Assembly: GCA_020152595.1 (NCBI GenBank)
Contig: JAIGNY010000132.1
Location: 405,501 to 469,500, forward strand
Length of the DNA: 64,000 nucleotides
Direction of reading: 5' to 3'
DNA from: Chiridota heheva
Lineage: Eukaryota; Echinodermata; Holothuroidea; Apodida; Chiridotidae
The stretch's first letter is position 1, and every line of letters starts with the position of its first letter. Made by a program: the position numbers and the translations under genes. Positions 1,576 through 48,470 of this stretch are shown here, piece by piece. Below the pieces are notes generated by a model. The model made no database searches, was not told where the DNA came from, and saw only the letters and a list, made by a program, of their open reading frames with translations.

Positions 1576-3660
1576 AGATACAACACAGAGTCTATTTGTC
1601 AGATCTACTTATAATATATCTATATGATACAACACAGAGTCTATTTGTCAGATCTACATATAATCCATCTGTATGATACAACACAGAGTCTATTTGTCAG
1701 ACCTACTGTACATATGATACATCTGTATGATACAACACACAGTCTATTTATCAGATCTACATATAATACATCTGTATGATACCACACAGAGTCTATTCAT
1801 CAGATCTACATATAATGTATTTGTATGATACGATACAATCTATTTGTCAGATCTACATATAATAATACATCTGTATGATGCGTCACACAGTCTATTTGTC
1901 AGATCTACATATAATACATCTCTGTATAATACAACACAGTGTCTATTTATCAGATCTACATATAATATATCTGTATGATAAGATCTACATATAATACATC
2001 TGTATGATACAACACTAGAGTCTCTATGTCAGATCTACATATAATACTACACAGAGTCTATTTGTCAGATCTACTTATAATACATCTGTATGATACAACA
2101 CAAAATCTACTTGTCAGATTACATATAATACATCTGTATGATACAACACAGAGCCTATTTGTCAGACCTACATATAATACATTTGTATAACACAACACAG
2201 AGTAGTTGTCCGATGTACATATAGTATATTTGTATGATGCAACAGTCTAATTGTCCAGTCTACATATAATACATCTGTATTTTAAAACACTGAGTCTATT
2301 TGTCAGATCAACATATAATACATCTGTATGATACACCACAGAGTGTATTTGTTAGATCTACATATAATATATCTCAATGATACAACACAGAGTCTATTTG
2401 TCAGATCTACATATAATATATCTGTATGATACAACACAGAGTCTATTTTCCCAATCTACATATAATATATCTGTATGATACAACACAGAGTCTGTCCGAT
2501 TCACATATAATATATCTGCATGATACAACACAGTTTATTTGTCAGAACTACATATAATATATCTGTATGATACAATACAGAGTCTATTTGTCAGACCTAC
2601 ATATAATACATTTGTATAACACAACACAGAGTAGTTGTCCGATGTACATATAGTATATTTGTATGATGCAACAGTCTAATTGTCCAGTCTACATATAATA
2701 CATCTGTATTTTAAAACACTGAGTCTATTTGTCAGATCAACATATAATACATCTGTATGATACACCACAGAGTGTATTTGTTAGATCTACATATAATATA
2801 TCTCAATGATACAACACAGAGTCTATTTGTCAGATCTACATATAATATATCTGTATGATACAACACAGAGTCTATTTTCCCAATCTACATATAATATATC
2901 TGTATGATACAACACAGAGTCTGTCCGATTCACATATAATATATCTGCATGATACAACACAGTTTATTTGTCAGAACTACATATAATATATCTGTATGAT
3001 ACAACACAGAGTCTATTTGTCAGATCTACATATAATATATCTGTATGATACAACACAGAGTCTATTTGTCAGATCTAAATATAATATATCTGTATGATAT
3101 AACATAGTCTATTTGTCAGATCTACATATAATATATCTGTATGATACAACACAGAGTCTATTTGTCAGATCTAAATATAATATATCTGTATGATATAACA
3201 TAGTCTATTTGTCAGATCTACATATAAGATATCTGTATGATACAACACAGAGTCTATTTGCCAGATCTACATGTAATATATCTGTATGATACAACACAGA
3301 GTCTATTTGTCAGATCTACATATATTATATATGCATGATACAACAGTCTATTTGTCAGATCTAGATATGATATATCTGTATGATATAAACATAGAGTCTA
3401 TTTGCCAGATTTACATTGTATGATACAACACAGAGTCTATTTGCCAGATCCACATATAATATATCTGTATGACACAACACAGAGTCTATCCGTCATCTAC
3501 ATATAATATATCTGTATGATACAACACAGAGTCTATTTGTCAGATCTACATATAATATATCTGTATGATACAACATAGTCTATTTGTCAGGTCTACATAT
3601 AATATATCTGTATGATACAACACAGAGTCTACTTGTCATCTACATATAATATATCTGTAT
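1576..3660. repeat. 49-bp tandem array (about 42 copies)
   Basis: Monomers of about 49 bp carry 'gatacaacacagagtctatt', 'tgtcagatctacatataat' and 'atatctgtat', with single-base variants and a few truncated units. A block of about 429 bp is repeated almost perfectly inside the array: the segment from about 2155 recurs from about 2586, including the same rare variants. That points to a recent multi-monomer duplication. Its first monomers overlap a small frame at 1424-1627, which I do not consider a gene. Confidence 0.95.
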
Positions 3661-3926: not shown

Positions 3927-6029
3927 TTTTTGGTTCGCGTGCGAAGCATTATGCGAACCTATATAATGGCAATTACGTCCGGCCGTCCACAGATTTGTCC
4001 TGAGATTTCCTCAGAAATGTTAAAGTTTTTTGAGAATACCTCAGAAAATGTAAAAGTTTCTTTAGAGTTACTCAGAAAAAGTTATAAGTTTCTTAAGATA
4101 TTCTTATGGAAGGTTTGAAATTCCTTATAAAAAGTTAAAGTTTTTCAGAGATACTTAAGACAGGATTGAAGACTAGTGTTCTTAAAAAGTTTACAAAACA
4201 TTGATATTTTCTTAGAAGATAACTGTAAAATGATATAATTTTCCAGTATTCTTCAAGATCCTCAAGTCTCTCTTGTAGCACTCGAGATTTAAAATCCTGA
4301 AAATTCTTCAAAATATTTGGGCACCAACACTTGTATCAGGCATGATTATTAAATTCTACTGTACCTTTATTATTCTGGTCATTTGCATAAAGTTGCTACA
4401 GTATATGACCTGACCATACCTTTTTTATTTAGTATGCTTATTCAGGGAGTGTGACAGGATGTGATTGCATATGGACATAGGGAGGGATGCCATGTGGGAC
4501 ATGGATGGGGGCCATGAGGGACATATGACATAATATTTACCACGTTGTATACACCAAGGGCTATATCAGGCATAATTATTTGACTCCACCTTTTTTTCTT
4601 ATTCAACAACCTATTTGCATATAAGTTATTATATGAACTGACACTTTCGTACATAGTATGCTTAATCAGGGACTGTGATAGCTAGGATTAGACTTCTTAT
4701 GGAGCTTATGGGACGTCATGTGAGACGTAGGGTGGGATGCCATTTGGGATGCCATGTGGGACATAGGGTGGGATGCCATGTGGGGCATGGAGTGGGATGC
4801 CATTTGGAAGAGGGTGGAATGCTACATAGGATATGTGGTGGAATGCCATGCAGGACATAAGGTGGATTGCCATGGTAAGGAATGGCATGTGGGACATGGG
4901 ATGTCATGTGGCGTCCCACCCCATTTCAACAAGTCATTTGCATATAAGTTATTATTTGAACTGACACTTTCATACATAGTATGCTCAATCAGGGACTGTG
5001 ATAGCTAGGATGAGACTTCTTATGGAGCCTATAGGATGTCATGTGGGACATGGGATGGGATGCCATGTGGGACAGGGTAGAAAGCCCTGTGGGACATGGT
5101 GGGATGCCACGAGTAACACAGAGTATAACATAGGTTGGGATGTCATGTGTGACATATGGTAAGATGCCATGTGTGACATAAGGTAGGATGCCATGTGTGA
5201 CATAGGGTAGGAGGCTATGTGGGACATAGGGTAGGAGGCCATGGGGACATGGGATGTGATGCCATGTGGGACATGAGATGTGATACCATGTGGGACATCA
5301 AGTAGGATATCATTGGGACATTGGGAGGGATACCATGTGGAACATATGGTGGGATGCTATGTGGAACATCAGATAGGAAGCCACTGATGCGGGACACGGG
5401 GAGGGATACCTTTTGGGACATAGGGAGGGATGTCATGTGGGACATATGGTTGGACTAATGTGGGACATACATGTAGGATGGGATCCATGTGGGTCATAGC
5501 GTGGGATGCCATGTGAGACATATGGTGGAATGCCATGTGGGACATATGGTGGAATGCCATGTGAGACACTGTATGGTGGAATGCCATGTGCGAGATATAG
5601 TAGACTGCCATATGGGACAAGGCATGGAATATCATGTGGGACATGAGGTGGGATGTCATTTGGGACATGGGATGTGGGACATAGGGTGGAATACCATGTG
5701 GGTCATAGGATGGGATCCCCTGTGGGACATATGATGGAATGCCACGTGGGACATGGGATGTCATGTGGGACATGGGGTGGGATGCCATGTGGAAGATATG
5801 GTGGAATGCCATGTGTGACATGTATGGGATGTCATGTGGGACATGGGGTGGGATGCCATGTGGGACATGGGGTGGGATACCATGTGGGACATGGGGTGAG
5901 ATGCCATGTGGTACATGGGATGCCATGTGGGACTTAGTGTGAGATGCCATTTTTATAATTGGCCGGGTCATATAACATGGGTGTCAATTTGCATAAGCAT
6001 GCGAACCATGACGGTATTTACCGTTCTAG
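3927..6029 (+). mobile_element. Family B element, copy 1 (hairpin ends, minisatellite core)
   Basis: The left end is TTTTTGGTTC with a 7-bp inverted repeat (GGTTCGC at 3932, GCGAACC at 3953-3959). A non-repetitive left arm of about 480 bp follows, then minisatellite blocks separated by spacers of about 95 bp near 4350, 4610 and 4930 that contain 'tttgcatataagttattat'. The right end repeats GCGAACC at 6001. A palindrome at 6011-6024 (ACGGTA, 2-bp loop, TACCGT) is followed by CTAG at 6026-6029. Ends and order of parts match copy 2 at 39063-41567, which fixes the boundaries. No protein is encoded. A 3' hairpin plus CTAG is a Helitron-type terminus; the left end does not show the standard 5' TC, so the class is inferred. 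Confidence 0.7.
4440..5950. repeat. 24-bp minisatellite core of family B copy 1
   Basis: Degenerate units of about 24 bp combine 'ggatgccatgtgggacat' with 'ggggtg' variants, interrupted by two non-repetitive spacers. The unit length is a multiple of three and the units lack stops in several frames. This gives spurious frames on both strands, such as a 200-codon minus-strand frame at 5369-5971 made of MSHMASHP-like octapeptides. The same array lies in copy 2, and a decayed inverted fragment lies at 43700-43910. Confidence 0.9.
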
Positions 6030-9026
6030 TTTTATTTTGCTATGCATCTTGAATAGATTAGTTCCTTTGTCAAACTCATTTTGTATACTTTTTGTTTTTA
6101 CATTCAACCACTGTATATTGAGGCTGTGTTTTCACTGTGACAAGTACTGTATGTGAACAGCAATCAAAGAAACTGCTCTCTCTTGAGAAATGCATCAAAT
6201 TGATGATTCTTTGACAAATTGTGATAATGGAACGACAGAAAGATATTTGAAGTATAATTCTTTACTGTGTGTTTCTAATTTCCTGAAATTGAGTAATTTG
6301 AAAATAATGAAAATGTTTTTGCACCTGCTGTTGATTGGCAGGGCTGAATCCGTGATTCTCATCCGGAAAGTGTGTGTGTGGGAGGGGGGAGGGAGGAAAT
6401 GGCCTCCTATCCTAAAAGTGGGGGGACAAGGTACAAATTTTCTCCAAATTGTGCTTATTTTTAGAAATTATACAGAAGGGGGTGAACATGTCCCCTGTCC
6501 ATGCAGGAATTACGGACTAAGATTCCAAATCTCTATGTCAGCTACTTTTTTCTCCTTCATTGCTGTGAACGTTTAGCTCCAAATGATTGTATGTGAAATA
6601 AACATTTACAAGAAAGCTACTTGCGATTAATCATTTTTGTTGTTGCCATTGAAAATCAATACCACAACACAAACATGGCCCACAAAATTTCAGTCAATGA
6701 CTTCCACAAATTTTAAACAGGATTAGAATAATCCTTGTAAATGTAAGAAGCAGAAATTAGCAGCAATCACTTATGAATGGGGATATTTCTTTAGTAAGCG
6801 AACCAGACGAGCACACAGCAAGTAAACTTACAATGAGCATGGATGTACCTCCATGCAATGAACACACAGCAAAATACGCTCTTGGTACACGTGTAGTATT
6901 ATTAGGCGTCGCTTAGAAATAGGCACATTGTACATGGCCTCTGGTTATAAAATTGGCCCTAAATTTCACTTTCTGTGTTAGGACGACATGGGGTTTTCCC
7001 GATGACTTAATATTACCTAGAAAACTCAAAGTTACCTAACATATTAAGAAAAGAAAAAAATCGAAGCGACAGAATTTTAATTGAAGTGACTTCAAATATT
7101 TGTTATCATTGCAGTCAATAGGGAAATTGTTTGTTTACTCGTTACTCAAAATGGCAGACATAACTGTGAACTGGTGTATAACATTAGGCTCCGATCTCTC
7201 TTGATCAAAATCTCGTTTTACAAGCTGTAAAACTGACAGCAAAATACACTGTCACTAAATACGCATGTAAATATTACCTGATGAGTCAAATAAATTGTAC
7301 AAAAAATGAAAAATTGTTACAAAATAAACGAAAAAAGGCTTAAACAGAGCTGAGTTGCAGCACGTTCTGCAGAAAAAGTGACCAGCTTGGCAGAGGATCG
7401 TAATGAATTTGATTTCTGGCTGGTGGTACAGTTTGGAAATTTTATATGGCAAGGCATATTTGTGTATAATGCATGACAAGCACAGTGAAAAGAGCAGAGC
7501 AGTCAGGTGAGAATGGGACTAAATGACATTGAAGAGAACTGTTCTGTATTTTCTAAACCAAATTTCCATTCTTATTTTCTATGAATTTGTTTTTAATGCT
7601 GTAGGAATAATCTTTTTATGATTTTGAAATCAGAATTCCAGCGTTTATTTGTACATGGGAGTCAATACTTTTCTCATACTAGTCGTGCAGTTTTATTTTA
7701 CTTAGCATCGTTTTGGGGCATATTTTGTGCTTATGGAAAGTTTCGGTACTAATCACGATAAATCGCTAAATGCTCGCAAATTTGGGTGATTACACGTTTA
7801 GTAAAGTTGCTAATTGTTTGCAGCACTACTTCAAGCAACAATAGTACTTCAAATTTCTATGGCGTATTTGCATTGTCATGACCCATGCATTAAATTCACG
7901 TAATGCACAACCTTCAGTATTTGGTTTAGTCCATTTTTGCAACAGGTGAATTTTATAACAAAGCGAAAAAATGTATGTAAACTTTTCTCGTTTTCCATTC
8001 TTTTTTTATACATTTTTGAATGCAATTTAAACAATCTCACACAGAAATTGATCAAACTTACCGAGAGATGAATGTTTTAGCATCGTGTTTGTATGCGTAT
8101 GCACTGTTCAAATGACTGCACTCACGAATGACCCTTCTAAAGTCAGATCATTCTACTCGGGCCAAAGTCATTTGCCCTGTACATGCATATCAAAACACTC
8201 TGCCTCATCATTAATCTTTAAGTAGTAACAGTACATTACATTATTGATGATAATAGGGATGCACATATTAAAATTTGTACAACAAATCACAAATTGTGCA
8301 TATTAAGACCCCTAAATTGACAGAGAAGTTGGACAAATTATCAAATATTATAAGATTTCAATTGGATTTTGAACTCTTTCTACAAGATTTTAAGATAATA
8401 TATTACGTGTCTATAGGGCCTATCTCTTGAACACAAGTATCACACAGTAAAGCTGTATTCATGATGCTGCCATTGTAATTTGATTATTCCGATCATAGGC
8501 ACTTGGTGGCTTGGATTTTGTGCATTAAATCGTGAAGATATCGATTCAAATAGATTTATTCTCCTCACAGATACAGAAATTGTGCAGTAAATGTGGATTG
8601 ATGGATTTATTATTGTAAGGAATGGGGTGAAGATGATTATTTTAAGATTTGAACAGAATTTGAATATTGAAAGGCACAGTACTGTGTGTTTATTGTGGCG
8701 TTGCAAATAATTAAAGTACAGCAGTATAGGGGAGGTTTAAATCCCTAACTTGATATAAAAGGGGCAGGGTGTTAGATTTGTTGAGGGGCACATAAGTGCC
8801 CGTGCGAAGCCCTGTGATTTTCGGCGTGGGGTCCAGGGGCCCCCTTAAACCCCTCCCCTGTGAAGCTATGGGATTTGAGCTGTAATCTTACCTAAGAATG
8901 ACACTATTGTATCTTACTCATAGAACCATCCATAGGCAAAACAACAATTTCTTGCTATGCTACCATTCTGTGCTCTGTATCCATGCAGGGTATTTTTCAT
9001 TTATGAGTTTAATAATGATTCTAAAG
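6030..9026. other. Unannotated stretch
   Basis: No supported gene. Visible items are a short G-rich segment near 6376-6400, a 6-bp perfect hairpin with a 4-base loop at 8786-8801 (GGGCAC/GTGCCC) in a locally GC-richer block at 8770-8870, and scattered AT-rich sequence. Small open frames of 70-130 codons (for example at 6190) show no recognisable domain. Confidence 0.45.
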
Positions 9027-31860: not shown

Positions 31861-32400
31861 ACAGTAGTATGATCAGATTTACTGGTATTAGTCAGGTTCA
31901 CTTTATTTTTGTGGAAAGTTTTGGGGATTAGCAAACCTATACATTTTTTAAAAGGTCATAACCCCAGAATTTTGAAACTCAAAGTTTCCATTTGCCCTGT
32001 TACCTGCATGTCATTCAAAATGGTGGGAAAACAAAATGGCTGCCAAACTAGAAAATATTCCAAAAAGTAATCATATAAATAGAATTGGGCAATTTGACTT
32101 AAAATTCTGTATTAATTTTTATGGCTTTTTAAACATATTTTATACCTTCCATCTTTTATAATAAATTCATGTCATCCAAAATGGCAGAAAAACAAAATGG
32201 CCACCAAAATAGAAAATATTACAAAAAAATAATCATATCAAATAGAATAGAACTGGGCAATTTGACTTGAAATCCTTTATTAATTTATGAATATTTAAAC
32301 ATATTTTACCTCCCATCTTTTATAATAAGGTCATGTCATCCAAAATGGTGGGAAAACAAAATATCCACCAAAACAAACAAAATATTATGGAAATTAAATG
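31861..32400 (-). repeat. Dispersed repeat with about 160-bp tandem paragraphs
   Basis: Paragraphs repeat 'tcatgtcatccaaaatgg', 'gaaaaacaaaatgg', 'gaaaatatt' and 'gaattgggcaatttgactt' about two and a half times. Read on the minus strand, this block aligns with sequence on both sides of family B copy 2 (38930-39062 and 41568-41760), so those two stretches were one such repeat before the insertion. The left end here (31868-31894) contains a single unit like those of the 18-bp array at 41764. Strand given is relative to the 39/41 kb copy. Confidence 0.7.
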
Positions 32401-39062: not shown

Positions 39063-41567
39063 TTTTTGGTTCGCATGCGTAGCATTATGCGAACCTATGT
39101 AATGGCGATTACGTCCATTCGGCCGTCCACAGATTTGTCCTGAGATTTCCTCAGAAATGTTAAAGTTTTTTGAGCATTTCTCAGAAAGTGTTAAAGTTTC
39201 TTCAGAGTTCCTCAGAGAAAGTTAAAGTTTCTTCAGATATCCTTATGGAAGGTTAGAATTTCCTTATAAAATGTTAAAGTTTTTCAGAGATACTTGAGAT
39301 AGGATTGATGACTAGTTTCCCTAAAAAGTCACAATACATTTGATATTTTCTTAGAAGATAAGTGTAAAATGATATAATTTCCAATATTCTTTAGAGATCT
39401 TCAAGTCTCTCTTGTAGTGCTTGAGATTTAAGGTCCTTAAAATTCTTCAAAATATTTGGGCACCAACAGTTGTATCAGGCATGATTTTTTAAACTCCACC
39501 TTTATTATTGTGCTCATTTGCATAAAGTTGCTACAGTATTTTGACCTGACCAGACTTTTTGATTTAATATGCTTAGTCAGGGAGTGTGACAGGATGTGAT
39601 TGCATATAAACATAGGGAGGGATGCCATGTGGGACATGGATGGGGGCCATGAAGGACATAATATTTAATATTTACCATGTTGTATACACCAAGGGCTATA
39701 TCAGGCATAATTATTTGACTCCACCTTTTTTTCTTATCTAAGAGCTCATTTGCATATAAGTTATTATATGAACTGACACTTTAATACATAGTATGCTCAA
39801 TCAGGGACTGTAATAGCTAGGATGAGACTTCTTAAGGAGCTTATGGGATGTCATGTCAAACATAGGGTGGGATGCCATGTGGGATGCTATGTGGGACATG
39901 GGATGCCATGTGGGACATGGGGTGGAATTCCATGTGGAACAAGGTGGAATGCCACGTAGGATATGTGGTGGAATGCCATGCAGGACATAGGGTGGATTGC
40001 CATGGGATGGAATGTCATGTGGGACATGGAATAATATGGGATGTCATGTGGGACATGGCGTCTCACCCCATTTCAACAAGTCATTTGCATATAAGTTAAT
40101 ATATGAACTGACACTTTTATACATAGTATGCTGAATCAGGGACTGTGATAGCTAGGATGAGACTTCCTGTGGAGCCTATGGGATGTCATGTGGGACATGG
40201 GGTGGGATGCCATGTGGGACATGGAATGGGATGCCATGTGGAACATGGGGTGGGATGCCATGTGGAACAGGGTAGAATGACATGTGGTGGGATGCCAGGA
40301 GTAACACAGTGTGACAGGTTGGGATGCCATGTGTGACATGAGGTAGGATGCCATGTGTAACATAGGGTAGGAGGCTATGTGGGACATAGGGTAGGAGGCC
40401 ATGGGGACATGGGATGTGATGCCATGTGGGACATAAAGTAGGATGTCATTGGGACATTAGGAGGGATACCATGTGGAACATCAGGTGGGAAGCCACTGAT
40501 ACAGGACACAGGGAGGGATGCCATGTGGGACATAGGGAGGGATGTAATGTGGTACATATGGTTGGATTAATGTGGGACATACATGGTTGGATTAATAGCG
40601 TGGGACATGGGACATATGGTGGAATGCCATGTGGGACATATGGGATGTTAGACACTATGGTGGTGCCATGTGGGAGATATGGTGGAATGCCATGCGTGGG
40701 ACATGAGGTGGGATGTCATTTGGACATGGGATGTGGGACTTAGGGTGGAATGCCATGTGGGTCATAGGATGGGATGCCCTGTGGGACATATGATGGAAAG
40801 CCATGTGGGACATAGGATGTCATGTGGGACATGGGGTGGGATGTCATGTGGAAGATTTGGTGGAATGCCATGTGGGACATAGGGAGGGATGCCATGTGGG
40901 ACATAGGAAGGGATGTAATGTGGTACATATGGTTGGATTAATGTGGGACATACATGTAGGATAGGATCTATGTGGGTCATAGCGTGGGATGCCATGTGGG
41001 ACATATGGTGGAATGCCATGTGGGACATATGGTGGAATGCCATGTTAGACACTGTATGGTGGTTTGTCATGTGGGAGATATGGTGGAATGCCATGTGGGA
41101 CAAGGCATGGGATGTCATGTAGGACATGAGGTGGGATGTCATTTGGTACATGGGATGTGGGACTTAAGGTGGAATGCCATGTGGGTCATAGGATGGGATG
41201 CCCTGTGGGACATATGATGGAATGCTAGTGGGACATAGGATGTCATGTGGGACATGGGGTGGGATGCCATGTGGAAGATATGGTGGAATGCCATGTGAGA
41301 CATGGGATGGGATGCTATGTGGGACATGGGATGTCATGTGGGACATGGGGTGGGATGCCATGTGGAAGATATGGTGGAACGCCATGTGGGACATGGGATG
41401 GGATGCCATGTGGGATGCCATGTGGGACATGGGGTGAGATGCCATGTGGTACATGGAATGCCATGTGGGACTTAGTGTGAGATGCCATTTTTATAATTGG
41501 CCGGGTCATATGATATGGGTGTCAATTTGCATGGGCATACGAACCATGACGGTATTTACCATTCTAG
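39063..41567 (+). mobile_element. Family B element, copy 2 (hairpin ends, minisatellite core)
   Basis: Starts TTTTTGGTTCGC, with an inverted repeat of GGTTCGCAT (39068) against ATGCGAACC (39087-39095). A left arm of about 500 bp is highly similar to copy 1. Three spacer copies with 'catttgcatataagtta' separate blocks of the 24-bp core. The right end has ACGAACC, a decayed palindrome (ACGGTA...TACCAT) and CTAG at 41564-41567. Its flanks align to the repeat at 31861-32400 in reverse, which acts as an empty-site comparison. It is about 400 bp longer than copy 1, mostly from core copy number. Confidence 0.75.
39840..41490. repeat. 24-bp minisatellite core of family B copy 2
   Basis: Same units as in copy 1 (ggatgccatgtgggacat type) with a non-repetitive spacer at about 40075-40170. 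Stop-poor frames occur on both strands as artefacts. Array order differs from copy 1, so the arrays have turned over independently. Confidence 0.9.
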
Positions 41568-47062: not shown

Positions 47063-48470
47063 TTGTGGTTCAAATGCTGATAGCATAAAGAACCTATGCA
47101 GTCATGCTGGCATGTGTATGTATGTATGTATGTATGTGTGTATACAGTATATGTATGTATATATGTGTGTGTGTGATGTATGTATGTGTGTATGTACTGT
47201 ATGTGTGTGTGTCTGTGACAGCAAGCTTGTTAACATGATATCTCACGAACGATACACTGGATTCATATCATATGTGGCACACAGATAGCCCATGATCTGT
47301 AGATGTGCCCTATTGTTTTGGTGGTGATGTCATGCATACTAATGAGTATAGGCAGGGCCTAATGTATCAATCTTGAAATGCTCATATTTTAATTATCACA
47401 AGTCTGTTTTGTTTCATATTTGGTACATTTATGATGTTAGCTAGTGTGTACGTGTTCATGATATAAAAACTTTAAAAAATTATCAATATGCTTTGTGGGC
47501 GGGGTTTAATATGATCTTGCTGAACAAAGCTTAATAACATGGTATCTCAAGAATAATACATTGGGATTCATATCATATTTGGTACACAGATAGCCAATGG
47601 TCTGTAAATGTGTCCTAATGTTTTTGGTGGTGATGTCTTGCATATGAATGAGTGGGCAGGGCTTAATGTAAAAATCTTGAAATGTTTATATTTTAGAAAG
47701 CACACATCTGTTATGTTTCATATTTGGTATAATTAAGATGTTAGCTAGTGTGTACGTGTTCATGGTATAAAGACATTGTATTTAATTAACATGCATAGTG
47801 GGCGGAACTTAATATAATTTTGCTGAAAAGAGCCTGTAAACCATATCTAACAATGATAAACTGGATTCATGTCATGGTACACAGATATCACATTGTCTGT
47901 ATATGTGACCTATTACATTTGGTGATAATGTCACGCATACCAATGAGTAGGCATGGCTTGATGTTAAAATCTTTAAATGCTCATAATTGAACAAGTAGCG
48001 GTACATGTCTGTTTTGATTCATACTTGGTATATTTATGTTTTTAGCTTGTGTATACATGTGTATGGTATAAAATTGTTGAATAATGGCATGATGCATATT
48101 GCTAAGTTGGGGAGGGAGAGGGGGATAAATATAAAATATAAAATTCTTGAAAAAGTGATACATTTATAGCAACCATATGTCTATTTGCATCATACTTGCA
48201 TGTTACCTGTCAGTAATTGTGAGCATGCTTATGTTGTTAACAGGTTCTATCACTAATAAGTGTACCTTAATGTGAAAATGCTCACACACATGCCATATGT
48301 GGTACCCAAATATGTAGGTGGGGCTTTATGTAAAATTATTATTACAGTGATGAATGTGCAACTGTATGCATGTTTTGCATCATACAAGTGTTGTCAATAG
48401 GTTCTATTTTATTGATATGCATGGTGGGCATGGCTTATTCATATATGTTTTTTACCATATTTCATGATAT
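47063..48470 (+). repeat. Dispersed repeat family A, copy 3
   Basis: The head has GGTTC (47067) and GAACC (47090) separated by 'aaatgctgatagcataaa', then a long TATG/TG-rich microsatellite (47110-47215). Paragraphs then recur about every 302 bp ('atctcacgaacgatacac', 'gtgccctattgtttt', 'ggcagggc.taatgt', 'tttcatatttggta', 'gtgggcggggttta'). Later paragraphs are more degraded. It lies within 250 bp of the FBXO45 splice acceptor, so it is intronic. Confidence 0.8.

Follow-up and report, generated by a model that had tools for sequence, protein, structure and literature searches.

Two repeat-cored elements found 35 kb apart in the same orientation, copy A and copy B, very probably represent one large family of non-coding, HINE-like elements in the non-autonomous Helitron2/Helentron group. 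Both lie in the window, that is, the whole 64,000-nucleotide stretch of Chiridota heheva DNA analysed here. By its structure, this family (family B) would be filed as a new family of a known kind. With it, a 1.1 Gb genome gains a large HINE-like family that has a minisatellite core, and HINE-like elements are again seen to scatter tandem arrays.

Anatomy of the copies and their ends

Both elements were found at the positions given in the initial annotation, and the left arm, the spacers and the 24-bp array are present as it had described them. The features are as follows, in window coordinates.

3927..6029, + strand: copy A, complete element of 2103 bp, with both termini present and flanks unlike those of copy B
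3927..3931, + strand: 5' T-run of copy A
3931..3959, + strand: 5' subTIR of copy A (12 bp from 3931) and hairpin GGTTCGC...GCGAACC
3960..4360, + strand: left arm of copy A, with an imperfect 31-bp repeat of 3.3 units at 4001-4103
4361..5030, + strand: three related spacers of copy A, each with ATTTGCAT, interleaved with 24-bp units
5031..5950, + strand: 24-bp minisatellite array of copy A, consensus near TGGGATGCCATGTGGGACATGGGG
5997..6008, + strand: 3' subTIR of copy A, GCATGCGAACCA, the reverse complement of the 5' subTIR at 11 of 12 positions
6011..6024, + strand: 3' palindrome of copy A, ACGGTATTTACCGT
6026..6029, + strand: terminal CTAG of copy A, followed by flanking TT
31906..32233, - strand: paralogue of the insertion site of copy B without the element; the joined flanks of copy B align unbroken through the junction (333 columns, 72%)
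39063..41567, + strand: copy B, complete element of 2505 bp, with the anatomy of copy A

The main BLAST match between the two copies reaches 83% over 2073 columns, and their flanks, compared over 500 bp on each side, are similar at chance level only. The ends had been described as exactly common to both copies. This is true of the 5' ends, where TTTTTGGTTCGC...GCGAACC is identical, but the 3' ends differ in two features, namely GCGAACC versus ACGAACC, a difference already recorded at that time, and ACGGTATTTACCGT in copy A versus ACGGTATTTACCAT in copy B; the last 60 bp agree at 54 of 60 positions. Similarly, the 14-base palindrome is perfect in copy A but contains one mismatch in copy B. The 24-bp array comprises, by TRF, about 34 units at 70% match in copy A and about 51 units at 67% in copy B, and both array length and element length vary among copies. 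The motif ATTTGCAT, which we take to be the octamer binding site of POU factors, is found in every spacer of both copies (element positions 455, 687 and 1010 in copy A; 454, 686 and 1021 in copy B), and a fourth occurrence lies at the right end, beside the 3' end, at element position 2061 in copy A and 2463 in copy B. The only stop-to-stop frame of at least 150 aa in either copy is an antisense frame running through the array of copy A (5369-5983), and an Rfam scan of the window returned 0 matches.

Both ends were seen in six copies (A, B, C47, C699, C25 and C3377) with lengths of 2.0-3.1 kb, and all six are bounded by the same two ends, rather than by the differing ends that the initial annotation had named as evidence against its reading. 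A 12-bp asymmetric repeat, TGGTTCGCATGC, starts 4 bases past the first T of the run in each of the six, and its inverted counterpart lies 21 bp from the 3' end. Between the two subTIRs, all 12 positions agree in C699 and C3377, and 11 of the 12 agree in the remaining four copies (A, B, C25 and C47); the 3' subTIR spans 21-33 bp from the 3' end, and the near edge of the palindrome lies 5 bp from it. In A, B and C699, the 5' asymmetric repeat takes part in a 5' hairpin that folds with z of -1.6, -3.5 and -2.9, weakly so in A. Measured against shuffles, folding is better by only 1.6 sd for the 5' end of copy A and by only 1.4 sd for the 3' end of copy B, the other four folds being better by 2.3 to 3.5 sd.

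The ends were also surveyed with genome-wide patterns, in which the core letters are fixed by construction and only the free positions are informative. The 5' pattern, whose anchor passes over copies that have G or C at the position ten bases upstream, gave 134 matches; the 100 listed start with TTTTT in 76 cases, TTATT in 12 and other letters in 12, one of them (C2066) being an internal duplicate with no insertion edge. In this same hundred, the outer two bases of the run are T in 93 and 98, and 19 have another base in place of the third T (A in 14, G in 4, C in 1). A subfamily with an extra T at the 5' end accounts for 3 of 13 aligned copies. A pattern over the 3' repeat gave 1,261 matches; in all 100 listed, TCAATTTGCAT or a variant still recognisable as such lies upstream, and that list therefore holds no class with a different interior. 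An exact head-to-tail joint, CTAG-TTTTTGGTTCG, was not found by pattern search of the genome; for a fungal Helitron, evidence of joined ends has been reported (PMC5148889). At G000:C227 182129-182226, a 3' end is followed by a 5' end of the same orientation, the coordinates placing about 23 bp between them.

Copy number, age and insertion sites

The search covered the 1.1 Gb assembly, which comprises 3744 contigs. Used as DNA queries, the 5' 124 bp and the 3' 90 bp produced 2287 and 767 first-look candidates respectively; 40 of each were scored, and all 40 matched in both cases. The 38-mer of the 5' hairpin has 123 exact matches (53 and 70 on the two strands), while ungapped 30-mers with at most 3 mismatches have 1,501 matches for the 5' end (743 and 758) and 4,554 for the 3' end (2299 and 2255), the reversed control giving 0 each time. 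The matches are far beyond chance, and the family is large and dispersed. Matches to the 3' end are about three times those to the 5' end, which fits frequent 5' truncation, although the excess is an overestimate because the ungapped pattern misses the 5' subfamily with the extra T. An excess of 3' ends has been published for three Helitron2 families (PMC3627910). Truncation at the 5' side with an intact 3' end was seen in two of eight 3'-anchored loci, copy A being among the eight; both (L011 and L016) are cut inside a spacer, and no duplication was seen at their edges.

Thirteen left arms diverge from their majority by K2P values of 0.026-0.072 and from each other by a mean of 0.072 (range 0.045-0.131, 78 pairs). 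Since these arms, save those of the window copies, were drawn from the best-scoring matches, the family as a whole is probably older than these values. Locus L007 contains four 5' ends in a row (135, 585, 1045 and 1501), spaced 450-460 bp apart; in each unit, host flank contributes about 60 bp and the 5' part of the element about 395 bp. A local tandem array has visibly grown here after insertion, and because the unit includes host DNA, copying of the element alone is no sufficient explanation. Further close pairs of 5' ends occur at C2010, C140 and C2066 (311, 254 and 53 bp apart).

The 3' pattern, which requires A or T eight bases downstream, gave 735 matches, and among the 100 listed the flank begins with TT in 90, TC in 7, TA in 2 and CT in 1, the first base being T in 99. 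When joined, the flanks of the C3377 copy (18 bases on the left, 62 on the right) match 18 other places in the genome at 74-81% identity; this level and the 72% at the copy B site are below the 90% used in PMC4067079, and the left side of the C3377 query measures only 18 bases. Each of the 18 matches runs through the junction, and the 8 that were aligned read ATTATTAAG or a close variant, then one to three T. Together with the unbroken paralogue of the copy B site in the window, these paralogous empty sites indicate that the ends originally assigned were right to within the T-run. The target duplications of a DDE transposon, which would have spoken against the original reading, were not seen, as none longer than TT occurs in the two empty-site sets or the two truncated copies. 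A region of 164-bp tandem repeats, seen at 32007-32373 of the window and in the flanks of copy B, is related to the host DNA into which copy B inserted.

The division of the T-run between element and target deserves separate treatment. A TT duplication would look like the T-run ends observed, since two flanking Ts plus a T-run are indistinguishable from it. The 5' run could accordingly be read as a host TT followed by an element-coded TTT or ATT, with copies bounded by TT on both sides through a true 2-bp target duplication; we consider this unlikely. Helitron-type elements are held not to make such a duplication. The third T, replaced more often than the outer two at the listed 5' ends, and the TT that opens 90 of the 100 listed 3' flanks would suit this reading. 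The outer two bases read TT and TT at C25 and C333, as a duplication would have them, but they differ at C316 (GT, TT) and C219 (AT, TA), where ends were taken for those of one element by their 2-kb spacing, and a subfamily starting with TTATTGG would yield the same counts. The many copies of family B offer a ready set for dividing the Ts between element and target at HINE ends, a matter unsettled in PMC4067079.

Relation to known elements and the alternatives

The structure supports the Helentron-like reading of the initial annotation. The lack of a 5' TC at the left end, on which that annotation had also remarked, is real, a T-run being found there, but it does not mark an undescribed group. 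PMC3627910 and PMC4067079 already describe for Helitron2/Helentron the lack of a 5' TC, the 5' hairpin, TT insertion, and an inverted repeat placed near the terminus on the left side and subterminally on the right; repeat-cored HINEs are known in oyster (PMC7492417). To call family B an undescribed group would be an error, one arising from the use of Helitron1 rules. Canonical Helitron1 (which starts with 5' TC, inserts between A and T and has no 5' hairpin) was itself rejected on account of the 5' T-run, the TT target and the 5' hairpin. In the open papers searched, family B was not found under any name, nor was a paper that brings HINE, Helentron and minisatellite together.

Three published systems allow a closer comparison. 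HINE/DINE-1 elements (Thomas et al. 2014, PMC4067079) are likewise non-coding, with subTIRs, a palindromic 5' subTIR, a 3' stem-loop, a T-run, two or more Ts flanking every insertion on either side, no clear target duplication (in family B, none longer than TT was seen) and, in some, tandem repeats. The HINE criterion of at least 11 identical subTIR bp within a family describes all six complete copies, which agree with HINEs also in the 3' palindrome, TT/T-rich insertion and absence of coding capacity. Unlike these elements, family B has no DINE-type microsatellite in the left arm by TRF, and no partner was found. In the mite HINEs of the same source (HINE-Mo), the 3' subTIR lies 38-60 bp from the end and the palindrome 8-35 bp, as against 21-33 bp and 5 bp here; family B is not filed with the mite HINE families. 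Helitron2 (Bao and Jurka 2013, PMC3627910) shares asymmetric inverted repeats of 8-15 bp, a 5' repeat that forms a 5' hairpin, a 3' repeat that lies about 20-30 bp from the end (21 bp in family B) and directly precedes a hairpin, a 5' T, a T-rich target and an excess of 3' ends. Its 5' repeat lies 0-2 bp from the 5' end, the distance in family B being 4 if the element includes all five T, or 2 if the outer TT is target; most of its 5'-truncated CRe copies have a target duplication, whereas the two truncated copies of family B show none. Cg_HINE of the Pacific oyster (PMC7492417) resembles family B in having a tandem-repeat array between a left and a right module that bear subTIRs and a 3' palindrome, in TT insertion and in having no assignable partner. 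It differs in that family B has its 24-bp units broken by spacers of about 95 bp and has no short microsatellite in the left module.

This mixture of features bears on whether family B could form a new rolling-circle subgroup apart from both Helentron and Helitron2. Such a subgroup would account for two end distances outside the mite HINE figures, for a CTAG 3' end that is Helitron1-like (3' CTRR) on an otherwise Helitron2-like element, and for the failure to find a partner with family-B ends. We judge it very unlikely, as the distance of the 3' repeat falls within the 20-30 bp of Helitron2 (PMC3627910), the T-run and TT target agree with HINEs, and a proto-Helentron ending in 3' CTAG has been reported (both PMC4067079).

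A MITE-type or other cut-and-paste DNA transposon, with an inverted repeat only seemingly asymmetric, is highly improbable. The short inverted repeats on both sides and the high copy number would suit it, and DINE-1-like elements were formerly annotated as MITEs (PMC4067079); yet the right-hand repeat is internal, 21 bp from the end, with a separate palindrome beyond it, and no target duplication longer than TT was seen, on which grounds a DDE-type MITE was rejected. A segmental duplication of a satellite-bearing block with no transposon, which the proximity and common orientation of copies A and B might suggest and for which shared flanks had been named as the proof, has practically no probability left and was rejected as the main explanation, given that the flanks of A and B are unrelated, that empty sites break at the element ends, and that end matches are scattered across the assembly, about equally many on each strand.

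The preferred reading remains a HINE-like family of the Helitron2/Helentron group, and rolling-circle transposition is inferred for it from this class. By analogy, a Rep-helicase supplied in trans would nick at the ends, and a single strand would be moved by rolling-circle replication. Pairing of the subTIRs might then disrupt the 5' hairpin and mark the stop, following the model of Bao and Jurka (PMC3627910). The central 24-bp array would be cargo, growing or shrinking by slippage or unequal exchange, and each transposition may seed a new array.

Candidate partners and neighbouring elements

The initial annotation had proposed looking for an autonomous element with the same ends, and none was found near 10 of the 11 Rep matches, one Rep and three PIF1 loci lying outside this scope. 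Profile searches of the genome, which take no account of introns, gave 11 matches from 16 candidates for Helitron_like_N and 7 from 17 for PIF1. Ten of the Rep matches contain stops and the eleventh is a fragment of 70 positions; of the PIF1 matches, five contain stops and the other two are fragments. The Rep neighbourhoods covered about 20 kb around each of the ten loci (about 13 kb at C1679, and with part of C3635 reading N). BLAST revealed no 5' or 3' end of family B in these ten neighbourhoods, only spacer and left-arm fragments near the Rep match of C1290, and no pair of inverted repeat plus palindrome was found around the ten loci.

On the Rep strand, 69 ORF fragments of at least 110 aa were present, and 50 of them were scanned with Pfam. 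Matches above the cut-off were PIF1 at C983, C1290 and C699, DUF6570 at C983, OTU at C1679 and AAA_19 at C2902; OTU is reported in Helentrons (PMC4067079, PMC5148889). That the genome contains Rep, PIF1, DUF6570 and OTU fragments speaks for the Helentron-type reading. At C3699, a frame on the upstream side of the Rep fragment (L043 3509-3967, minus strand) matches PF04843, a herpesvirus tegument domain model, with 37.7 bits against a cut-off of 25; the frame may represent a protease-like domain belonging to a Helitron-type element. An endonuclease is part of Helentrons proper. The sole endonuclease match among the 50 of 69 fragments scanned, PF14529 at C1679, scored 26.8 bits, below the cut-off of 27.4, and lies about 9 kb from the Rep match; the frame beside it is presumably a retrotransposon ORF, and the match is probably of retrotransposon origin. 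C866 gave a sub-threshold reverse transcriptase match. Neither was accepted as evidence of a Helentron endonuclease. Within the profiles used and the loci examined, family B looks orphaned in this assembly; as no partner was found, its link to Helentrons is drawn from structure.

Other elements were also observed. HINE-like 5' ends with a different repeat, GGTTCC...GGAACC, occur in the window at 638-1200, from 9027 onward and at 47066-48400, the third being decayed. These ends are followed by a TATG/TGTA microsatellite and by repeats of about 165-304 bp starting near AGCTTGTAAACACGATATCTCAAGAA; six exact 5' ends of this type were counted in about 354 kb of partly overlapping sequence examined, and they probably represent a second HINE family. 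Finally, the array of the C3377 copy holds a 1,040-bp insertion (L051, about 2242-3281) with the ends AGCTGTGA...TCACAGCT, which looks like a TIR transposon and parts of which are related, at 68-74%, to window positions 6667-7824.
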